Assembly: GCA_022835595.1 (NCBI GenBank)
Contig: BQUP01000001.1
Span: forward strand, 1,116,001-1,180,000
Reading direction: 5' to 3'
DNA from: Cystobasidium ongulense
Taxonomy: Eukaryota > Basidiomycota > Cystobasidiomycetes > Cystobasidiales > Cystobasidiaceae
DNA length: 64,000 nucleotides
Shown: one piece after another, positions 27,673-63,411 of the stretch
Position numbering within the stretch: position 1 is the first letter of the stretch
Layout of the letters: each line of letters starts with the position of its first letter
The notes under the pieces: generated by a model
Told to the model about the DNA's origin: nothing
Database searches by the model: none
What the model saw: only the letters and a program-made list of their open reading frames with translations
Position numbers and translations under genes: made by a program

Positions 27673-29412
27673 TTATTCTTCATCGCGAGCAGGTATGAGG
27701 CCGTCTTCAGATTTGTTCCCAGTTGCTCCCTTTGTTATTTCGGTAAGTAGTGATTTTCCATCTTTATAGTTCGCATTTACACCTCTACCACCGGCGGAAG
27801 CATTGACACTTCGATAAAAGTCCTTGATGAAACTAGCAACTCCATCTTCTCCAAACTCTCTCAGAGCTCTTGCTCCCCATCTCCATTCCGAATTAGGATC
27901 ACCGCCTAAGCCTTCTTCTGCAGCTTGTTTCTGAGTAGCTTGTGTTGATCGTATACGCTGGGTCTGCGTTTCTGCTCCTTGACTGGCACCGGACTTGGCT
28001 TTGGGAGGACCACTTGATAAAATTGTACGTTCCAGATATTGTTGGCGTAAGAGCGCTTGTAAGAAAGTGCTCAAGGTCTGCTTCTCAGGTCGGAGAGCTG
28101 CAGGGTTGAGTGGCAGTCTCGTATCGAATCGCAAATCTAGACGTTTCAGGTGATTTTGCAATTGTTCTGTTGTTGCACATTTCATCAGAATTCAGACGCG
28201 TTAATCTATCAAGCAAGTGGATTGGGATGATAAACTCACCATCCGTCAAGACCCGCTCATTGACCATGATCAATGCGAGAACAACATAAAGAATGCCGAG
28301 AAGAGTTCTTTGTTCCGGACCAGTCTGCCAATCTATGATATGATCCTCTCCCCTCTTCCACTCTTTCAATCCATCATCGGCTTGTGCACCGGTCGCGATA
28401 GCGTCACCTAAAGCACCGCGTAAATCTTCATCGTACCTCTCTTGATCAGTATGAACTAATGATTCATTGCTTATAACAGCTTTTCGTATAATTTCACGCC
28501 CTATTCTCGTTCTCAGACAAAACATTTTGGCAGGTCCTTTCTTTCTTGTTTTCTTTGCTTGGGTGTTCTCCTCTTCACTGGATCCGGAGCCTGAAGCATC
28601 TCCATTCTGTGTATTCTTCTTTTTCTTTTTCTTCTTGTCATCTGCATCACCGCCTGCGAGGTCTTCTGTTTCATTGGGAAAGAGTGGGACCAATTCCATG
28701 CCCCATACCGATTCGAGCATTTCATTTGCTTCGTCGAAGACCTTTGCAAAGTGTCGCGTAGCTCCCAGTAGGACTGTAAAGGATGATATGCCGTGTCAGC
28801 ATGCTCTGACATGGCTTCAACCGAGTCGTTGCTCGAGACATCTACCTTTTTTGTTGATCTCGTCGCGTCGCAGAGGTCGACGACTGACTTCGTTGCAAAT
28901 GGCGAGTCTGACTAGATCTCTGGCGCGTTCTTTGACGTCCTGTGAGCAGAGCGAGCCGTACATCGTCAGCGAAAGCGACAAAGCCTTAGGTCCTGCTGTC
29001 CGCAGTAGAGGCTCACCGTGTCTGAGAAGTGTCCTTTGCCCTTGCCGCTTAGAGTACCAGCAGCAGCACCAGCATCGCTCTCGTCTTCAGCTTCACTCTC
29101 AGAAGCATTGTTTCTGCTTTCGCGCCTGCTCGCCTTTTCTTTTCCCTTGCCTTTATCCTTCTTGCCCTTGCCCTCGCCCTTCTGCCTCTCGAGGATGGAC
29201 GCTTCTGCTCGTTCTAGGTCGTCCATTCCATCCTCTTCCTCTGGTGTCTGCGATTTGACACAGCAGTCAGCATATACGCAGCATATCATAGTGGTACACA
29301 TGCTACGCACTTCTCTCCTCGCTAATCTGGCCTGTTGTTTCCAGCAGTTACAGCGCGTCAGTTGACTGCTGTTTACGCGCAGTTCCACACGACGCCGTGC
29401 CAGACTCACCAT
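27673..29412 (-). CDS. NSE3: Nse3/MAGE-domain subunit of the SMC5/6 complex
   Basis: Predicted 458-residue protein with a MAGE homology domain. Fungi typically carry one MAGE protein, Nse3, which pairs with Nse1 and Nse4 in the SMC5/6 DNA-repair complex in the nucleus. Exons in transcript order: 29410..29412, 29311..29331, 29017..29247, 28846..28939, 28240..28773, 27673..28166. MAGE features: KERARDLVRLAICNE, RRPLRRDEI, VLTDGEQLQNHLKRLDL, and the late WRWGARALREFGEDGVASFI stretch. An acidic, Lys-rich linker follows the WGMELV segment and includes a run of seven lysines. Exon 1 supplies only the ATG. The first two introns (78 and 63 nt) are stop-free multiples of three, so an N-terminus made without splicing them is formally possible; both have a CTGAC branch site. 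The family is well supported; the N-terminal model is less sure. Confidence 0.85.
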
Positions 29413-36519: not shown

Positions 36520-39500
36520 TCAAGCCTCTTGCACTACTAACGCAGGCGTAAGAGGCATCGACTCGGACATTTCAACATCCTCCGCATCCTCCTCTCCTTC
36601 TTCTTCTTCCAGTTTGACAGCAAGATTGTCATCATTCGTCACTTGCTCTGCGAGACCTCTCTTAGAGGACCTTTCAACCTCAAGCTTCTCATTAGCGCGA
36701 CGTAGAAAATCTTGGATGTCTTCGACCCGTCGTCGGATACGGCGCTCGCTCTCAGTGAGCTGTTCGAGTTGTTTTTCCTGTTGAGCGAAGAAGGTTCGTC
36801 AGAAAGGTTGGAGTGTTGATACCGAATGATTCGGCAAGCACTCACGTCTGCAGCTTTCTCGACTGGATGGTAATACGTGTTAGAGAAGCATGAAAAGGAT
36901 CAGCCAAGGGTCTCTCACATCTCCATGCTACATCGTGATGGACTTACCCTGGAAGTCCGCATCTCGCAATTTCTGCCAAGCGGAATGACGGTCGCACTTC
37001 CTTCTAGAGAGTGTGCATATCAATCCTTCTTCATCTTCTTCTTCCGCGCCCTCTTCTTGTGGAATGTGTAGCGGAGGAAGTAGAGTGGCGGCATCGTCTC
37101 CCTCTTCAGCTAGCATCATTATATTCCTACCTTCATCACTATCTAACCATTCCTGCCAATCTTTGTCATCCCAAACTAGTCTAACATCAAATCCACAAGG
37201 TGCATCTGCATTTACCGAGCTTGATCCACTTTTGCTTTTGTTCTTACTTTTACCAGAGCCCCCTCCACTAGGTTTAGTATTATTTGCCATATGTGCTTGA
37301 ACTGTGACTTCCCATCTGCGTATTGCTAATCGTAGATATGATAATCTAGCATTAATCAAAGAAAGTGATAATTCTAAATTTTGTCGTTTAGTAACGTATT
37401 CTGATAGTTGATTCTGTAATTGTTCCAAACGATATTCCTCTTCTACTATCCTATAGTCTAGATCTAAACCTCTTGGAATATCATTATATGGAGCTGCGCT
37501 AGCTTCGGTGATCTCTCCAGTGATGGTGGCATTTTGCATTATGTCTTGACCATCAACAAGATGCCCTAGCTTTGCACTATCGGCACTTCTAACAACAGTC
37601 TCCAATTTCTTGACTTCAGAAACAGCATCCCAAAGTAATCTCAAGTTCTCAGGTTTATCACTATCACTCCCTTGATGGTTGTTCGACGACGACGATGATG
37701 ATGATTGTTCCAACTTCAAGGCTGCTACTTTAATACCACACAAATCGGAACAGTATTTACTTAATTTCAGAGCTGGTTCATTGCATTCTTCTCTTGCGCA
37801 TCTTGATTTTGAAACTGTATGAAGGCCGGAATCTATGCGTAGGTTGGGAAAGGATCAAAGGAAGGGAAGCAAGGTATAAGCTAATGTCGTTCTTTCACTC
37901 TCTGGCAGAGTCACCAAAAGCAGGGACGGGAAGGGATTGAGAGGGTCAAAAAGCGTAGGGCAGGGTAATAAGTAGACGATGATGCCTTGACAGTCCAGCT
38001 ACATTGCACTGCAACTGCAATTTATTTTCCTTGGTACTATCTTACTCATATCCTATTCGCTGTTTGGTACTGTACTGCAGACCGCAGTTATAGAAGAAAC
38101 ACCACTGATAACCCTTACCCAAAAGACGAATGACAACTGATACGGAAAGGAAAGGAGACGATAGGAAGTGAGGGTACATATTGGTTGTGAAGGAGAAATG
38201 GAGGGAATGGATTTGTGTTTGTGTTTTTACAGAGTTATAGACCGACCTTTTTCGCATATTGGACAGATGAACAAATCTATCAACGTGATTGAAGTTTCGT
38301 CGATATTGACACAGTCGACGTGATACCAGTTGTCGCATCTGCAAAGAGTTAGGGAAAGGGCTCGTAAGCTTAAATCCTGTCGATATTGCTTTGCAGCGAA
38401 ACTTGTACTTACCGGTCGCACGCTATCATAAGCCTTTCAGGATCGTAAAGTTGTTGACACTAAAACAAATTCGCAATCAACAAGGCGCTCAGCTTGACAA
38501 TTCGTGCAATAGGTAAGAGAGAAGGGTGGTTAATCACTTACGATACAATATAATCTATCATCCACTTCATCCTCTTCGAAACTCGCCTGAGCTCTCGCCG
38601 CTGCGCCCGCATCAAGAACAGCATCAATAGCAGCAGCAGCATGTTCCAATGCGTTTGTAGGTGAAGCTCTTCCAGTAGAAGAAGTAGAATTTGAAATCGA
38701 TTGTTGTGAAACTACATTTTGTAATGCTTTATTCATTTTCGAATTATTATTATTCCCTCTTTTATTATTCGAAGATGAAGAAGATGATCCTCCTGCTCTA
38801 CTACTCCCACCTACATTGCCTGAATTCGAAGTGGATTTTCCATTCTTTGTGCTAGGTAAAGGAACAGGTATAGAAGTAGGAGGAGAACCAGCATTTGACC
38901 CTCCGTTCATTTTTTGTTGTTTTGCTGCTTTAGCTAATGCAGCTGCTCTTGCACCTTCACTCGCATAAGGTATAAAACCCATCATTCCTTCAGTTGCTGG
39001 TTCTGGCATTGGTGGTAACGCCATTACACCTGGCGCAGTCGCACTCGCAGTGTTATTATTGTAGGGGTTGAAAGCGAGATGGGATGTAGATGGAGAATGT
39101 ATTTTAATATCAGGAGAAGGAGGAAATGCTACATTTGAAGCATTGGTGGTGGCGCTATTAGGTAAAGGCAATTCAGGTGAATCTAACTTCGTTTTCGCAT
39201 TGGGTCTTCTAGGCGCTGCTGCTCGTTTTGATCTGTTTGCTGCAGGTTTAGATTGAGAGTTGAGAGTCGCATTTGAAGCAGAAACAGGAGGAGAAGCCCC
39301 ATCCGCCTGTTGATTACTAGCAGATGAATCACTCCTCTTCAAATTATGTATGCCATTCCCACTAGCATCCTTCTCAGCTTTTTTCCTAACATTTTCCAAT
39401 CTTTTCCTTTCTAATTCAGCTTTTCTTTTAGATTTAGCTTCTTCCAATTCTAATTCCTTTGCAATACGAGATTTTTCTTTTGCTTCCATTGCTGCTATTT

Positions 39501-56558: not shown

Positions 56559-58705
56559 ATGAAGAGATCCGCTGAGGAAACAAATGGAAACGGCGTCCAG
56601 TCCAAGCGACGTGCGCTCGACGACGAAGAAGCTCGCACCAATTTCCGAGCGGGACTTTTCGAGACAGTTGCGCATGAGGAGAGCCGGAAGGCGTATGCCA
56701 GCTCTGAGCCGTACGTACTGCTGCTTGGTGATTGTAGCGAGGTGCTCTGACTGACTAGCCTGTTACTTCTGTAATTCGAACAGATACAAGCATGGCGTCC
56801 TGCGAGACTTGATCAACGACCGTAAATTTTGCCATTTCCAGGTCTCAATTATGCAGAAGCAGTCTATCATGTAGAGGCATACTGACTTGATGTCCATCAC
56901 TGTCTACTCATGCAGAGCTCCTCAGAAGCGTCCGCAAGGAAATAAAAGACCACATCTCCTTCACACCCAAAGAGACCGACATTTACAAAATCCAGCAATC
57001 AGGCGACCTGGCCAACCTGGACGGTCTCGATGCCGACTCGCTCTCCAAGCTCCCTTCACTCTTACGCTTCAGAGATGCCATGTACTCCTCTGCCTTCCGC
57101 AAATACATTGCAGGAATCACTGGATCCGGCCCTCTCAGTGGCGTAAAAACCGACATGGCCATCAATGTATACACACCAGGATGCCACTTGCTCTGCCACG
57201 ACGATGTCATCGGCACGAGACGAGTCAGCTATATCCTCTACTTGCTCGACCCAGACCATCCTTGGAAGCCTGAATGGGGTGGTGCTCTTCGACTCTTCCC
57301 AACCGAGCTCTTAAAGAACGACCAAGGAGAAGAAGTCAGAGTGCCTCAACCTGACCCAACAGTGATCATTCCACCAGCTTTCAACCAACTATCTTTCTTC
57401 ACTGTCCAGCCTGGAGAGAGCTTCCATGATGTTGAGGAAGTCTACAAGCGAGGACCGGGAGAAGATGAGAATGACGGAGGGAGAGAGCGCATGGCCATTA
57501 GCGGCTGGTTCCACATCCCACAAGAAGGTGAAGAAGGGTACGAAGAGGGCCTAGAGGAGAAGCTGGCCGAGCGAAGTTCGCTAGCTCAGCTCCAAGGAGG
57601 GAAAGCAGACCAGTTTGACCAGCCTCAACCTGACTGGCATGCTTACCCAGCCGAGGAGAAACCTTCAACAAACGGAAATGCAGACAAGGGCAAATCAAAA
57701 GCTGATGAAGAAGATGACGACGAAGAGCCGGAACTGACAGGGGCCGACCTCAACTTCCTAATTCGCTTTATCAACCCAAGCTATCTCACTCCAGACACGG
57801 TCGAAGAGCTGAACCAGATTTTCGCCAACGAGTCGTCCCTCCAATTATCAGATTTCCTGAATGACAAATTCGCAGAACCTCTCAAGAAACTCATCGAGAC
57901 GGCGGATAAGGAGGACAATCCCTCGATGCCTGGTCCGTCGAAGCGAACTGGAGTTGCTCGTCCACCTCACAAGCATCGCTATCTCTTCCGCAACGTCGAC
58001 TGGGAGAACGCGGACAAGGACACAACAACGGCCAAAGTAAAGAAGCTTCAATCCAAGGAGAGCACTCTCGACCTATGGCACGAGCTTTTAGACGTCTTCT
58101 TTGTCTCGACTGCCTTCAAGAAATGGCTTGGTCTCGTTATGGGCTTGACTATGGAGAAAGCCAACATCGCTGCACGTCGTTTCAGGCGAGGCATGGACTA
58201 CACTCTCGCTACTAGTCTGGAACAGTCGGAACCACAGCTTGAGCTGTGCTTGGGTCTTACACCCAGTAAGGGATGGGGTGGCGACAACAGAGAAGATGAC
58301 GAAGACGAGGATGAGGAGAATGACAAGAAAGAAAAGACTGTGAAGGAGACAGAACAAGCAGACGACGATCTTCCAGGCGGATATGAAATGTATATGGCAC
58401 CGGATGACGATGAAGACGATGCCGCATCAGATCATGGTGTCGAAATCCCGTCCAACAAGGGTACATCAGGTACTGGCGCAGGCAAGCGAAGAGAAAAGGC
58501 AGACCCAGCGGTATATAGAAGTGCAGCGGACGGAGCAGATGACGGCGTTCTCGCAAGTTTCCCAGCAGCTTGGAATACTCTCTCTGTGGTGCTGCGAGAC
58601 AAGGGGGTACTGCGCTTCGTCAAGTACGTCAGCAAGGCGGCGCAAGGAGATAGATGGGATGTCGCTGGAGAGTTTGGAATCACTATTGATGCCGACGAAG
58701 AATGA
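56559..58705 (+). CDS. Tpa1/Ofd1-family prolyl hydroxylase (2-oxoglutarate/Fe(II) dioxygenase)
   Basis: Predicted 659-residue nuclear/cytosolic dioxygenase. Relatives hydroxylate a proline of ribosomal protein uS12 and regulate translation termination; fission yeast Ofd1 also controls Sre1 by oxygen. Exons: 56559..56710, 56784..56821, 56916..58705. The 38-nt exon 2 ends at a GTAAAT donor; a longer reading through it would break the frame. The N-terminal catalytic domain has the iron ligands H and D in LLCHDDVIGTRRVSYILYLL, the GGALRLFP turn, the second His in PGESFHDVEEV and the 2-oxoglutarate Arg in ERMAISGWFH. The C-terminal Ofd1_CTDD-like domain follows (ELTGADLNFLIRFINPSYLT to RFRRGMDYTLAT) with an acidic low-complexity stretch before a final strand-helix unit. 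The basic start MKRSAEETNG with QSKRRALDDE suggests nuclear import. Length fits the family. Confidence 0.93.
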
Positions 58706-58908: not shown

Positions 58909-60448
58909 TCATCCTGAGATGAGCGTATGGTGACCTCTTACGTTCATAAAAGAGTACTGATAATTGTAGTGACAGGTAATCAGTCAAAGTCAAACATGGG
59001 AACTTATGTGCAATATGTTCCTTACCTCGCACAAGTGAGGAGGTCCGTTTCGGTTGTAGTTTGCATAGACAAGGTTAGGCTCAAACATGAAAGGACGCAG
59101 CCCAGCATTCTCGAGTGCGGAGAACCAATTGACAAGCTTCATCGAATTCGGGAATCGATCTTCGTATGCGTGGATCTCGATTAAAAGTTGACCAAACGGC
59201 AACGGCTTATCTTGGTAATTCTTCAAGATATCTTCCATTACCGCGAATTCGAAGGTTTCAATGCTGCAAGCAATAACTCTGGATCAGCATTCGGCTTGCA
59301 ATGTGTAGAGATGGCGTTGTTGCGCCTACTCAATCTTCAATATGTCAATGAATTTATGCCCGTTCAAAGCCATTAGCGTTTCGAGCGTATACATCGGCGG
59401 TTTGCCATCATGATTGTCGCGACCATCGAGACCCCAAGGGTGGAAGTGAGCTCGACTTTTGTGACTGCTGCTGATCTCATCCCCAAACTGCGAGTGCAAA
59501 GCAATGAAGACGAAGTTGTCAATCGTGAGGAACCGCAACAGCACTCTGAATCGAGAAAATAAGACGTACATGTGTGACACTAAAGTCGTAACCCCAAACC
59601 TCTGCAGGAGGAACAGAAGTCGATTTAACCATATCGAATGAGTTGTGGCTCGAGTCCAATTCACTTACCGAAATTAGTTCTCGACAGCATTGCTTCTTCG
59701 AATGACGATTCATAGTTGATGCCTTTTAAATTTCAAACAAGTAGAATATTAGCATTGCTTAAACACATGGATCGGCAGAGCCGACACACGTACCGAAGCT
59801 GTATATGACACCTGTATTCTGTCGTGCCAGTTGCGATACACCGCAAACCCACTTGCCGCCATCTGAATATGTTTCGCCCGTATTAGCCGCTTAGCAACAA
59901 TCGCGTGAATTGTGTGTGCAGCGTACCTCCCTGTGAGTCAGAAGCGGAACATGTCAATACATGTACACAGAATTGCTGGCACGATGGACGGGTATGCTCA
60001 CAGTTGCTCCCAAACGTTCCATTTCGAAGGGACAGTTGAAGGCCGGGTAGAGCTGTGATCGTGATTTTCCAGATGCACGCGACGGGGTTCAGCGGCGTCT
60101 ACAGAAGCATGTAAAGAGGAGGCTCACAAAGTCGTAGACTGTCATAGCAGGCCAAGGGCCATTTGGATTAGATGTAAATGGGAACGACTGAGGGTCGGGA
60201 CCGAATGCATCCGTGAGTTCCTTCCTTCCCGCTCGGCTTCTTTGGAAGATCTCTTCTGATCTCTGTAGTCGTTCACTAAGCGTCAGATCTTTCGCATTTC
60301 CAGCTGTTGCGAATGACGCCTTGCTGATTGATGGGTAGGACTGCTGCCTGTAATAGAGTACCGTGCAGACGAAGAATAGGAAAACGGTGAGAGAGTAGTG
60401 GGCGGGGTGCGCCGATAGCAGCGGCCGCGACGGGTTGTAGAGCGGCAT
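58909..60448 (-). CDS. METTL24-like membrane-anchored methyltransferase (Methyltransf_22 family)
   Basis: Predicted 324-residue protein. Exons in transcript order: 60128..60448, 60002..60052, 59927..59930, 59794..59862, 59669..59722, 59570..59601, 59330..59487, 59026..59263, 58909..58956; all phases close. An N-terminal signal anchor (HYSLTVFLFFVCTVLYYR) suggests a type II Golgi/ER protein. The methyltransferase-like domain shows LYPAFNCPFEMERLGATG, then GDGGKWVCGVSQLARQ, SFGINYESSFEEAML, VWGYDFSVT, HFHPWGLDG, the family signature ILKIDIETFEFAVMEDI, LPFGQLLIEIHAY and the end motif FEPNLVYANYNR followed by YSFMNVRGHHTL. The invariant GDGG is formed only through a 4-nt exon (GGAG). Substrates of this family are unknown. 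Nine exons in 1.5 kb make it the most intron-dense gene here. Confidence 0.88.
59927..59930 (-). other. 4-nt microexon GGAG
   Basis: On the minus strand: CTGACTCACAG, GGAG, GTACGC. It follows a codon-complete exon (GCA ACT) and precedes AT GGC GGC AAG, so GGAG adds Gly and the first base of Asp, forming GDGGKWVC. Skipping it shifts the frame. Both flanking introns carry good branch sites (CTGAC, CTAAT). Confidence 0.75.
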
Positions 60449-61111: not shown

Positions 61112-62901
61112 CTAAGCGCGCAATATGTCCATCATTGCTTCTCTGAGCTCCTGAGCTGCTCTTTCTTCTGCAGGTTCTGGCAAACCTGTTTGATCTCCTT
61201 GCCTCTCATATGGCGGTGGAGGCAGCGGTGTTTCGTCTTGATGTTCGCTAGTTGTTGCTCGAGGAATTGGCGTGGCAGCCGAAGGAGAAACGCCTGTAGC
61301 TGATGAGTACGGGGGTGCTTCGTCCGCTAACTCGGGGACAATCGATGGCAACGGCGAGACGAGGACACCTTGAACTGGTTGCGGGGCAGCTGAGGCAGGT
61401 AAGACTTCATGGCCGTCTGATTAAATCCGGTCGAAAAAATTCAAGCACAGTCAGTGATGTAGTCTTCATGCAACAAATGAAGTCCTCGAGGCTTACCATT
61501 TGAGCTCGCTTCCTCGATAGGGGGAGGTGGTCGATCCGCATCGATACTAGGCGGTGCTGTTTCCGAACTAGCCCCTTCCGAGAATTGCTCGTAACCGTCG
61601 AACTCGATTTCGTTTTGGAATATGGTCAGCAGGTTTGGATCCAGACCTCGTGAGGTAGTGGCTTGAAGTGCGCTATACTGCGGCGTATACATTCGAGAGA
61701 GGGGAGAGTTGGCTTCTGGTGTCTCAGATACTGTGGAATCTGACTGTTGAGCGGCCGGCGGATAGTCCGGTATAATTGTCACGGGACGATCAAAAAATAT
61801 CACGTCTTCCCTATCACCCTGTTTCCCTCTAAAGCTAGCCGTCATTCGTATCCGAAATGCGATCTCGTTGTATATTGTGGTTTGTGTTATAGACTCGCAA
61901 GAATCAGCATCAACAGGCTGAAGCCAAATGTGCAAGAAAACACTTCTCGAAGATGAGAAGGCTGCTGCTTTGCCTGACCTTGATATGACAGTGCGCAAGC
62001 TTGGACGCTCGAGAAGTTCAGTAATCTCCGGCTCTTCTTCGTCATGATCGCTAATGGACACGCTGCGGACGAGCTCTGCACTTATACTTCGAAGCTTGAG
62101 GCCCTTCTCCTCTACTAGAGACGCATCGGGTGGCGGCACTCGAACGCGCAGCTCAATCGCTTCGGACCGACGGAGGTTGGTTGTTCCATGAGGGAAGAAA
62201 CTTGAAATCTCGGTAGGATGCTGGGAGGTGTATATCTCAGGTTGAGGAGGTGATAAAGATGAGGAATGAGACGGCGATGACGCTCGAGTAAGGTGTATGA
62301 GCGTCTTGACAGAAATGTCTGGCCCGGAGGAGGCGTGCAGGGTGGCTTTAAGCGTGTATTCAATGGCTCCGCTACCGATGTGGCAGCAGTGTGGTAGGTC
62401 TTCGGTCAGCTGGAAGGTAAAGTCGAGATTGCTTGGAGGTCCCATCGTGGATCCGCTTGCCTCGGTGGCAATGCTACTGCTTCCAAAGCCAGCTCGGGTA
62501 GCAGTCTTCCTGTCCCATAGAGTCTTGCACTCCCGAATGAGGTCGAGAGGCTGTCTGAAGTCGTGCTGTTGCTTCTTGCCTCGATGGCCTCTTCGCTGGT
62601 GTCGTGCAGGCGTGTCGTCGCCGTCGTCGTCGTCATCCGCATTGCCTCTGATGCTCTCGACGCCTGCAAACTCGAGTGTGACCTTCTCGACAAGCGAGCG
62701 GTAGGCAGCTGGATCCGATGCAGTGAACTTGATCTGCAAGCTTCCTTGCACAGTGGAAGCCGCATAGCCTAGATAGCCTCGTTGAAAGCTGACCTCGCCT
62801 GGATCTGGCACCAAGTTCAGCAGCGCCTGGGGTGGAGCAGGGCCATCCGAGCCCAGCAGCAGGGTACTCTCGGACGAGTTCTCGTAGGTCGGAGGATCCA
62901 T
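61112..62901 (-). CDS. Alpha-arrestin-like trafficking adaptor with PPxY motifs
   Basis: Predicted 569-residue protein, exons in transcript order 61497..62901 and 61112..61416 joined by an 80-nt intron. The N-terminal two thirds look like an arrestin N plus C fold: SFQRGYLGYAASTVQGSLQI, LTEDLPHCCHIGSGAIEYTL, RSEAIELRVRVPPPDASLVE, then ISAELVRSVSISDHDEEEPE and TTIYNEIAFRIRMTASF. The tail is Pro/Ser rich with two PPxY-type motifs (EAPPYSSA and PPPPYERQG), and PPTY occurs at residue 3 to 6. PPxY motifs bind WW domains of Rsp5/Nedd4 ubiquitin ligases, and alpha-arrestins use them to direct ubiquitination of plasma-membrane transporters. An acidic run (DDDDDGDD) and a basic segment interrupt the N domain. 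Similarity is by pattern only. Confidence 0.75.
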
Positions 62902-63411
62902 CTTGGCTGGCCTTCACCTCATTGCTGGTCTTGGACAGAGGAAGAGAGCGTCGTCGTCGTTGATCCACCGGCCAGCACTTGTAGAGAAACGTGACTTTGA
63001 CGGTCGCAGACGCAAACGCAGTCGAGGAAGCCTCTGTCCCTGTGATGATTACAAAGTACCTCGGATGTCGCTTCATGCCCTCGCTGCTGTCCTGCGAGCC
63101 ATGCTTGACTCTCTGTCCTGCTTGTTGGACGTGATCGAGAAATATTACACCCGAAGAGATACATGCTCTTCAGTCTTTTATCTCTCACCATTGCATACTT
63201 GCGGCATATCCATGGCATGGACAGAATCTCCTCCTCCTCAAGAGACTGCATTCTCAATTGGAAACCCTGATGTACGCGGTCTCCACGAGTAACTAGGTCA
63301 AAGTGATCGTTACACAGGTGGTATGCAGTTTTGCAAGATCTCTACGGGCCAATACTTCTCAAGGTGGAGCACTGAGGCTCATCAAGCATCAGAACCGCCT
63401 GTATATCCGCC
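62902..63411. other. Divergent intergenic region
   Basis: 510 nt between the arrestin-like gene (-) and the partial gene at the right edge (+). Nothing recognisable. Confidence 0.4.

Follow-up and report, generated by a model that had tools for sequence, protein, structure and literature searches.

A putative four-nucleotide coding exon between two short introns of a Methyltransf_22 gene

Introduction

Can four bases stand as a coding exon of their own? This question is raised by a methyltransferase gene on the minus strand of the 64 kb stretch of DNA analysed here (64,000 nucleotides, "the window"). A sequence-only reading had placed the bases GGAG between introns of 71 and 64 nt as a separate exon, and had held that only this exon makes the motif GDGGKWVC. 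We compared this reading with the other ways in which the interval could be spliced, using reading frame, protein-family fit, splice signals and shuffled sequence.

Results

The methyltransferase gene and its neighbourhood

As shown in Table 1, the gene is predicted to have nine exons. Their lengths are 321, 51, 4, 69, 54, 32, 158, 238 and 48 nt, and the joined frame has no stop. All eight introns (75, 71, 64, 71, 67, 82, 66 and 69 nt) run from GT to AG. The spliced product of 324 residues belongs to Methyltransf_22 (Pfam PF13383), which it matches at 83.2 bits against a curated cut-off of 22.4. A weaker second match of the same product is the FkbM domain Methyltransf_21, at 28.6 bits. The sequence-only reading had called the gene METTL24-like; family membership was assessed here at the level of Pfam. 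Searched against solved structures, the product had no match at E up to 10. The hydrophobic stretch in exon 1, called by eye, is possibly a membrane anchor.

Table 1. Predicted features of the methyltransferase gene, in window coordinates.
Feature	Coordinates	Strand	Description
Methyltransf_22 gene, nine exons, 324 aa	58909..60448	minus	ATG at 60448, stop ends 58909; PF13383 83.2 bits
Exon 1	60128..60448	minus	321 nt; hydrophobic stretch close to N-terminus
Exon 2	60002..60052	minus	51 nt, LYPAFNCPFEMERLGAT; ends ERLGAT
Intron 2	59931..60001	minus	71 nt, GTGAGC...CACAG; branch candidates TTGAC (A 24 nt from exon) and CTGAC (A 8 nt)
Putative microexon GGAG	59927..59930	minus	4 nt; codon GGA and first base of GAT
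Intron 3	59863..59926	minus	64 nt, GTACGC...TTCAG; branch candidates CTAAT (A 21 nt from exon) and TTCAC (A 44 nt)
Exon 4	59794..59862	minus	69 nt; begins AT GGC GGC AAG TGG, completes GDGGKWVCG
Exons 5-9	58909..59722	minus	54, 32, 158, 238 and 48 nt; separating introns 67, 82, 66 and 69 nt

Nearby genes encode VPS13, CLU, Ofd1-like, protein kinase, AAA and MAGE proteins, and a Pfam match was found in 6 of the 10 stretches scanned. This set of neighbours is compatible with a fungal origin without proving it. The Ofd1-type oxygenase gene (56559..58705, plus strand; Ofd1_CTDD 271.6 bits, 2OG-FeII_Oxy_4 96.4 bits) lies tail to tail with the methyltransferase gene, with about 200 bp between the stops. 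Its start varies between parser settings. At 61112..62913 (minus), free parses begin a two-exon gene of 654 nt at 61845, and an open frame of 490 codons (61441..62913) extends further upstream. No Pfam match was found for this 490-codon frame.

Scans of viral_contigs and genome_contigs, which are described as viral and prokaryotic contig collections, found no close relative, and so none with either the same or an undivided exon. A DNA pattern for GDGGKWVC had 0 matches in viral_contigs. The single match in genome_contigs looks like chance, for by eye the surrounding frames resemble shadow frames of a G+C-rich bacterial contig. The genome carrying it gave no Methyltransf_22 match in a search that was positive in 0 of 14 control genomes, and such an answer is no proof of absence.

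GGAG keeps the frame and completes the conserved motif

On sequence evidence, GGAG is an internal exon of a few nucleotides with a GT-AG intron on each side, and both the reading frame and a conserved protein motif require it. The positions proposed for GGAG (59930..59927, minus) and for its introns (60001..59931, 71 nt, and 59926..59863, 64 nt) are exact. With GGAG in place the frame is kept and GDGGKWVC is complete, as the sequence-only reading had claimed. The nine-exon join is then open and reaches the Methyltransf_22 score given above. It was also right that skipping shifts the frame. The skipped product ends at 213 residues and, at E up to 1, no longer matches PF13383. If just the G residue encoded by GGAG is deleted, the PF13383 score is 75.5 bits, compared with 83.2 for the intact product. 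Retention of both introns 2 and 3 leads to stops.

We then enumerated parses between the fixed frames of exon 2 and KWVCG, with introns of at least 30 nt running from GT or GC to AG. Parses that stay in frame and free of stops number ten with one intron and 83 with two. Six of the 83 end in GDGG. Five of these, the proposed parse among them, share the GGAG exon and differ in the upstream donor, and the sixth uses a 49-nt exon and a GC donor. The earlier statement that only GGAG makes GDGGKWVC was therefore slightly too strong, since one parse reaches GDGG without the GGAG exon.

Profile scoring covered ten fragments of the 93 parses, namely the GGAG reading and nine rivals. Six of the rivals have one intron; the other three have two introns and likewise use GGAG, but pair it with a different donor or acceptor. 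The Methyltransf_22 score was 34.1 bits for the GGAG reading and 17.1 to 27.4 bits for the nine rivals. Were a non-GT donor used behind the GGAG that exon 2 itself contains, the result would be ERLGDGG, which scores 27.1 versus 34.1 bits. The profile favours G followed by D, as ten substitutions (five per position) drop the score to 29.8-31.7 bits. It also favours the spacing that GGAG provides, with 29.7 bits for one residue fewer and 30.9 for one more. Because the substitution and spacing probes both score lower, GGAG is favoured by residue identity and by spacing alike. These comparisons support the 4-nt exon as the best reading of those compared.

Splice signals of the flanking introns

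Introns 2 and 3 fall inside the 64-82 nt range of the gene and are of ordinary size. Predicted introns of the window reach 154 nt, so length alone would permit a single intron of 139 nt. Among 61 self-predicted introns of the window, a self-trained set that favours strong donors, GTGAGC of intron 2 stands at percentile 0.43 and GTACGC of intron 3 at 0.03, which is weak. Other weak donors of the same gene are GTAAGG (0.05) and GTAGGC (0.10). The acceptor-plus-branch score is at the top of the predicted set for both introns. In intron 2, TTGAC is an alternative branch site to CTGAC, and CTCAC, at 4 nt from the exon, also fits the branch pattern. Borders and branch sites had been described as good. 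This does not extend to every signal: the GTACGC donor is weak, and the A of CTGAC is just 8 nt from the exon. Two AGs stand 4 nt apart (CAGGGAG, window 59931 and 59927, minus) directly before GT, an arrangement that may form a zero-length exon or a ratchet site.

Parsing without homology

A small splice parser was run without homology, on the codon usage of the window and on matrices that it had trained from the introns it predicted itself. When the start and stop of the gene were fixed, the parser included GGAG at intron costs of -7, -9, -11 and -13 and omitted it at -15 (four of five settings). The exact nine-exon model was returned at -11 only, and other exons were parsed differently at -7, -9 and -13. 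The methyltransferase gene was missed altogether in free parses of the whole window at -11, -13 and -15. The shortest of 48 internal exons in the parser's genes at -13 has 17 nt, although this parser handles short exons badly. Within that limit, exons of 4-nt size are not common in the window.

In the gene at 37539..36520 (minus), which has no Pfam match in its main frame, all three parser settings predict an internal exon of 17 nt. It is possibly a second, predicted microexon of the window. In the MAGE-domain gene at 29412..27673 (minus; 55.8 bits), the parser proposes a 3-nt first exon consisting of ATG only and a second exon of 21 nt. These two exons are proposed at intron costs of -11 and -13 and not at -15.

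Small exons in shuffled sequence

The 139-nt interval was subjected to 20,000 dinucleotide shuffles in which its ends stayed fixed and introns had to measure 40 nt or more. Signals were counted as good when YAG, a GTRNG or GTAYG donor and two CTNAY branch motifs were present. An in-frame 4-nt exon encoding GD appeared in 8 of the 20,000 shuffles, and with good signals in 0 of 20,000, which is rarer than a chance product would be. When any in-frame, stop-free 4-nt exon was counted, 2,071 shuffles qualified, 28 of them with good signals; raising the length limit to 25 nt brought these numbers to 9,599 and 130. Because 4-nt exons of any content are common in shuffles, the weight rests on coding content and signals, not on a bare AG..GT. 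On both strands of the window, the string [CT]AG-GGNG-GT[AG]NG has a single occurrence, which is the GGAG site. The same string with any four bases in place of GGNG occurs 18 times.

Discussion

In the cell, we infer, GGAG at 59930..59927 is very probably a real, constitutively included 4-nt coding exon between intron-defined short introns that would be removed sequentially. Introns 2 and 3 would be ordinary short introns of the U2 type, and intron definition would recognise each of them as one unit. They would probably be removed consecutively, because two complexes could hardly occupy four bases simultaneously. Once the first intron is out, whichever it is, GGAG would lie inside a longer exon and the second reaction would be an ordinary one. 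Intron definition had been put forward by the sequence-only reading, and it would be the natural route given how short the gene's eight introns are (64-82 nt). In fission yeast, splice-site pairing is reported to be essentially confined to intron definition (PMC6616335). Intron definition with stepwise removal was proposed by Guo and Liu for the 1-nt exon of Arabidopsis APC11 (PMC4674806). A dedicated mechanism had been suggested as the other route. Nothing that we found supports it and dedicated machinery is not called for. The local RNA fold around the exon is no stronger than that of shuffles, 185 of 200 of which fold at least as well (z +1.41), and RNA structure was rejected as a mechanism for GGAG.

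The interval could also be read as a single in-frame intron with other borders. A GC-AG intron of 135 nt at 59997..59863, for instance, would give LGATVNGG, and one of 93 nt at 59982..59890 would place a longer peptide ahead of DGG. Ten one-intron parses are indeed in frame and free of stops, and the GC-AG product is both the best rival, at 27.4 bits, and of the same length as the GGAG product. However, the six of the ten products that were scored reach 17.1-27.4 bits against 34.1 bits for the GGAG reading. The GT donors that one-intron parses require (GTGCCA, GTTTGG and GTCCCT) score under all 61 predicted introns of the window. The usual context of a GC donor is AG-GCAAGT, and the context here (GA before GCATAC) is far from it. 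We regard a single intron as very unlikely. It is still harder to believe in a decayed gene, or a sequencing error at the locus, that GGAG rescues by coincidence. The gene does stay open only with an unusually small exon, but the remaining eight exons are open and in frame, the domain scores well, and a suitable GGAG with good signals was never produced by the 20,000 shuffles. Least credible of all is one complex intron of 139 nt, nested in the manner of a stwintron and removed whole. Stwintrons are known in fungi (PMC6616335), but removing one whole should leave the frame intact, whereas removal of 60001..59863 as a whole joins ACT to ATGG and shifts it. If the 67-nt intron is retained in addition, the frame reopens and the first half of the domain is lost (33.0 versus 83.2 bits). 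Introns 2 and 3 also lack mutual similarity, as 299 of 500 shuffles reach their score; on the same count, duplication of one flanking intron from the other was rejected.

Two further readings keep GGAG and make its inclusion variable. GGAG might act as a frame switch, in which inclusion versus skipping sets the amount of enzyme, and skipping occurs by direct joining of 60001 to 59863 or through the second AG of CAGGGAG. Without GGAG the frame is indeed shifted and the product is truncated and lacks the domain, and the CAG and GAG acceptors are 4 nt apart, so that use of the second would leave an exon of zero length. There are fungal precedents in a glucose-dependent microexon switch in Trichoderma Xlr2 (PMC11121469) and in rtnA of Aspergillus niger, where a 15-nt exon is skipped (PMC6616335). 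Yet loss of frame follows from any out-of-frame exon and is therefore no evidence of regulation, and the RNA around the exon has no unusual structure. At three settings, the predicted introns of the window that have a G at acceptor position -3, as in GAG, number 0 of 79, 0 of 61 and 1 of 45. This is weak and partly circular evidence, because the parser's starting matrix disfavours G there. The on-off switch that had been suggested for this exon thus found no support, and we consider it unlikely. In a related form, the tandem acceptors (CAG|GGAG|GT) would offer a choice between a 4-nt and a zero-length exon, would act as a recursive-splicing point in the 139-nt interval and would turn the enzyme on or off by frame. 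This we take to be quite unlikely.

Genes of other organisms are known in which the introns are short and some coding exons very short, and the proposed GGAG exon is one more case of this published class. Predicted exons of the basidiomycete Phlebia radiata go down to two nucleotides, and its mean intron is 72 nt (PMC6540522). The likeness lies in very short coding exons in short-intron genes. The genes are different, however, and the Phlebia exon models were built with RNA-Seq evidence, while GGAG is read from frame and protein family. The one example given of the shortest exons is a start-codon exon, and the passages on these exons give no count of internal ones (PMC6540522). P450 genes of Phanerochaete chrysosporium, another basidiomycete, likewise have short coding exons, reported down to 6 bp, in other genes again (PMC1184071). 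The 1-nt exon of Arabidopsis APC11 resembles GGAG in that its length is not a multiple of three, its inclusion keeps the frame and annotation misses it. In contrast to GGAG, it was proven by cDNA and reporter constructs, and it lies 333 nt into a 422-nt intron interval (PMC4674806). Xlr2 of Trichoderma virens is a fungal case in which the presence of a microexon decides the protein made, but its inclusion varies with glucose, whereas GGAG is read here as probably constitutive (PMC11121469). Stwintrons are similar in that short introns are removed in consecutive reactions; they differ in leaving no exon between the two introns, where four coding bases remain at GGAG (PMC6616335).

Plant microexons of 15 nt or less are reported to be mostly unannotated in reference genomes, and in plants exons of this kind often escape gene finders and default read mappers (PMC8831610). 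GGAG may therefore serve as a test case for annotation. Missing it would break the conserved domain of this methyltransferase gene. A 4-nt exon between two short introns would also be a good substrate for studying the order in which intron-defined neighbours are removed.
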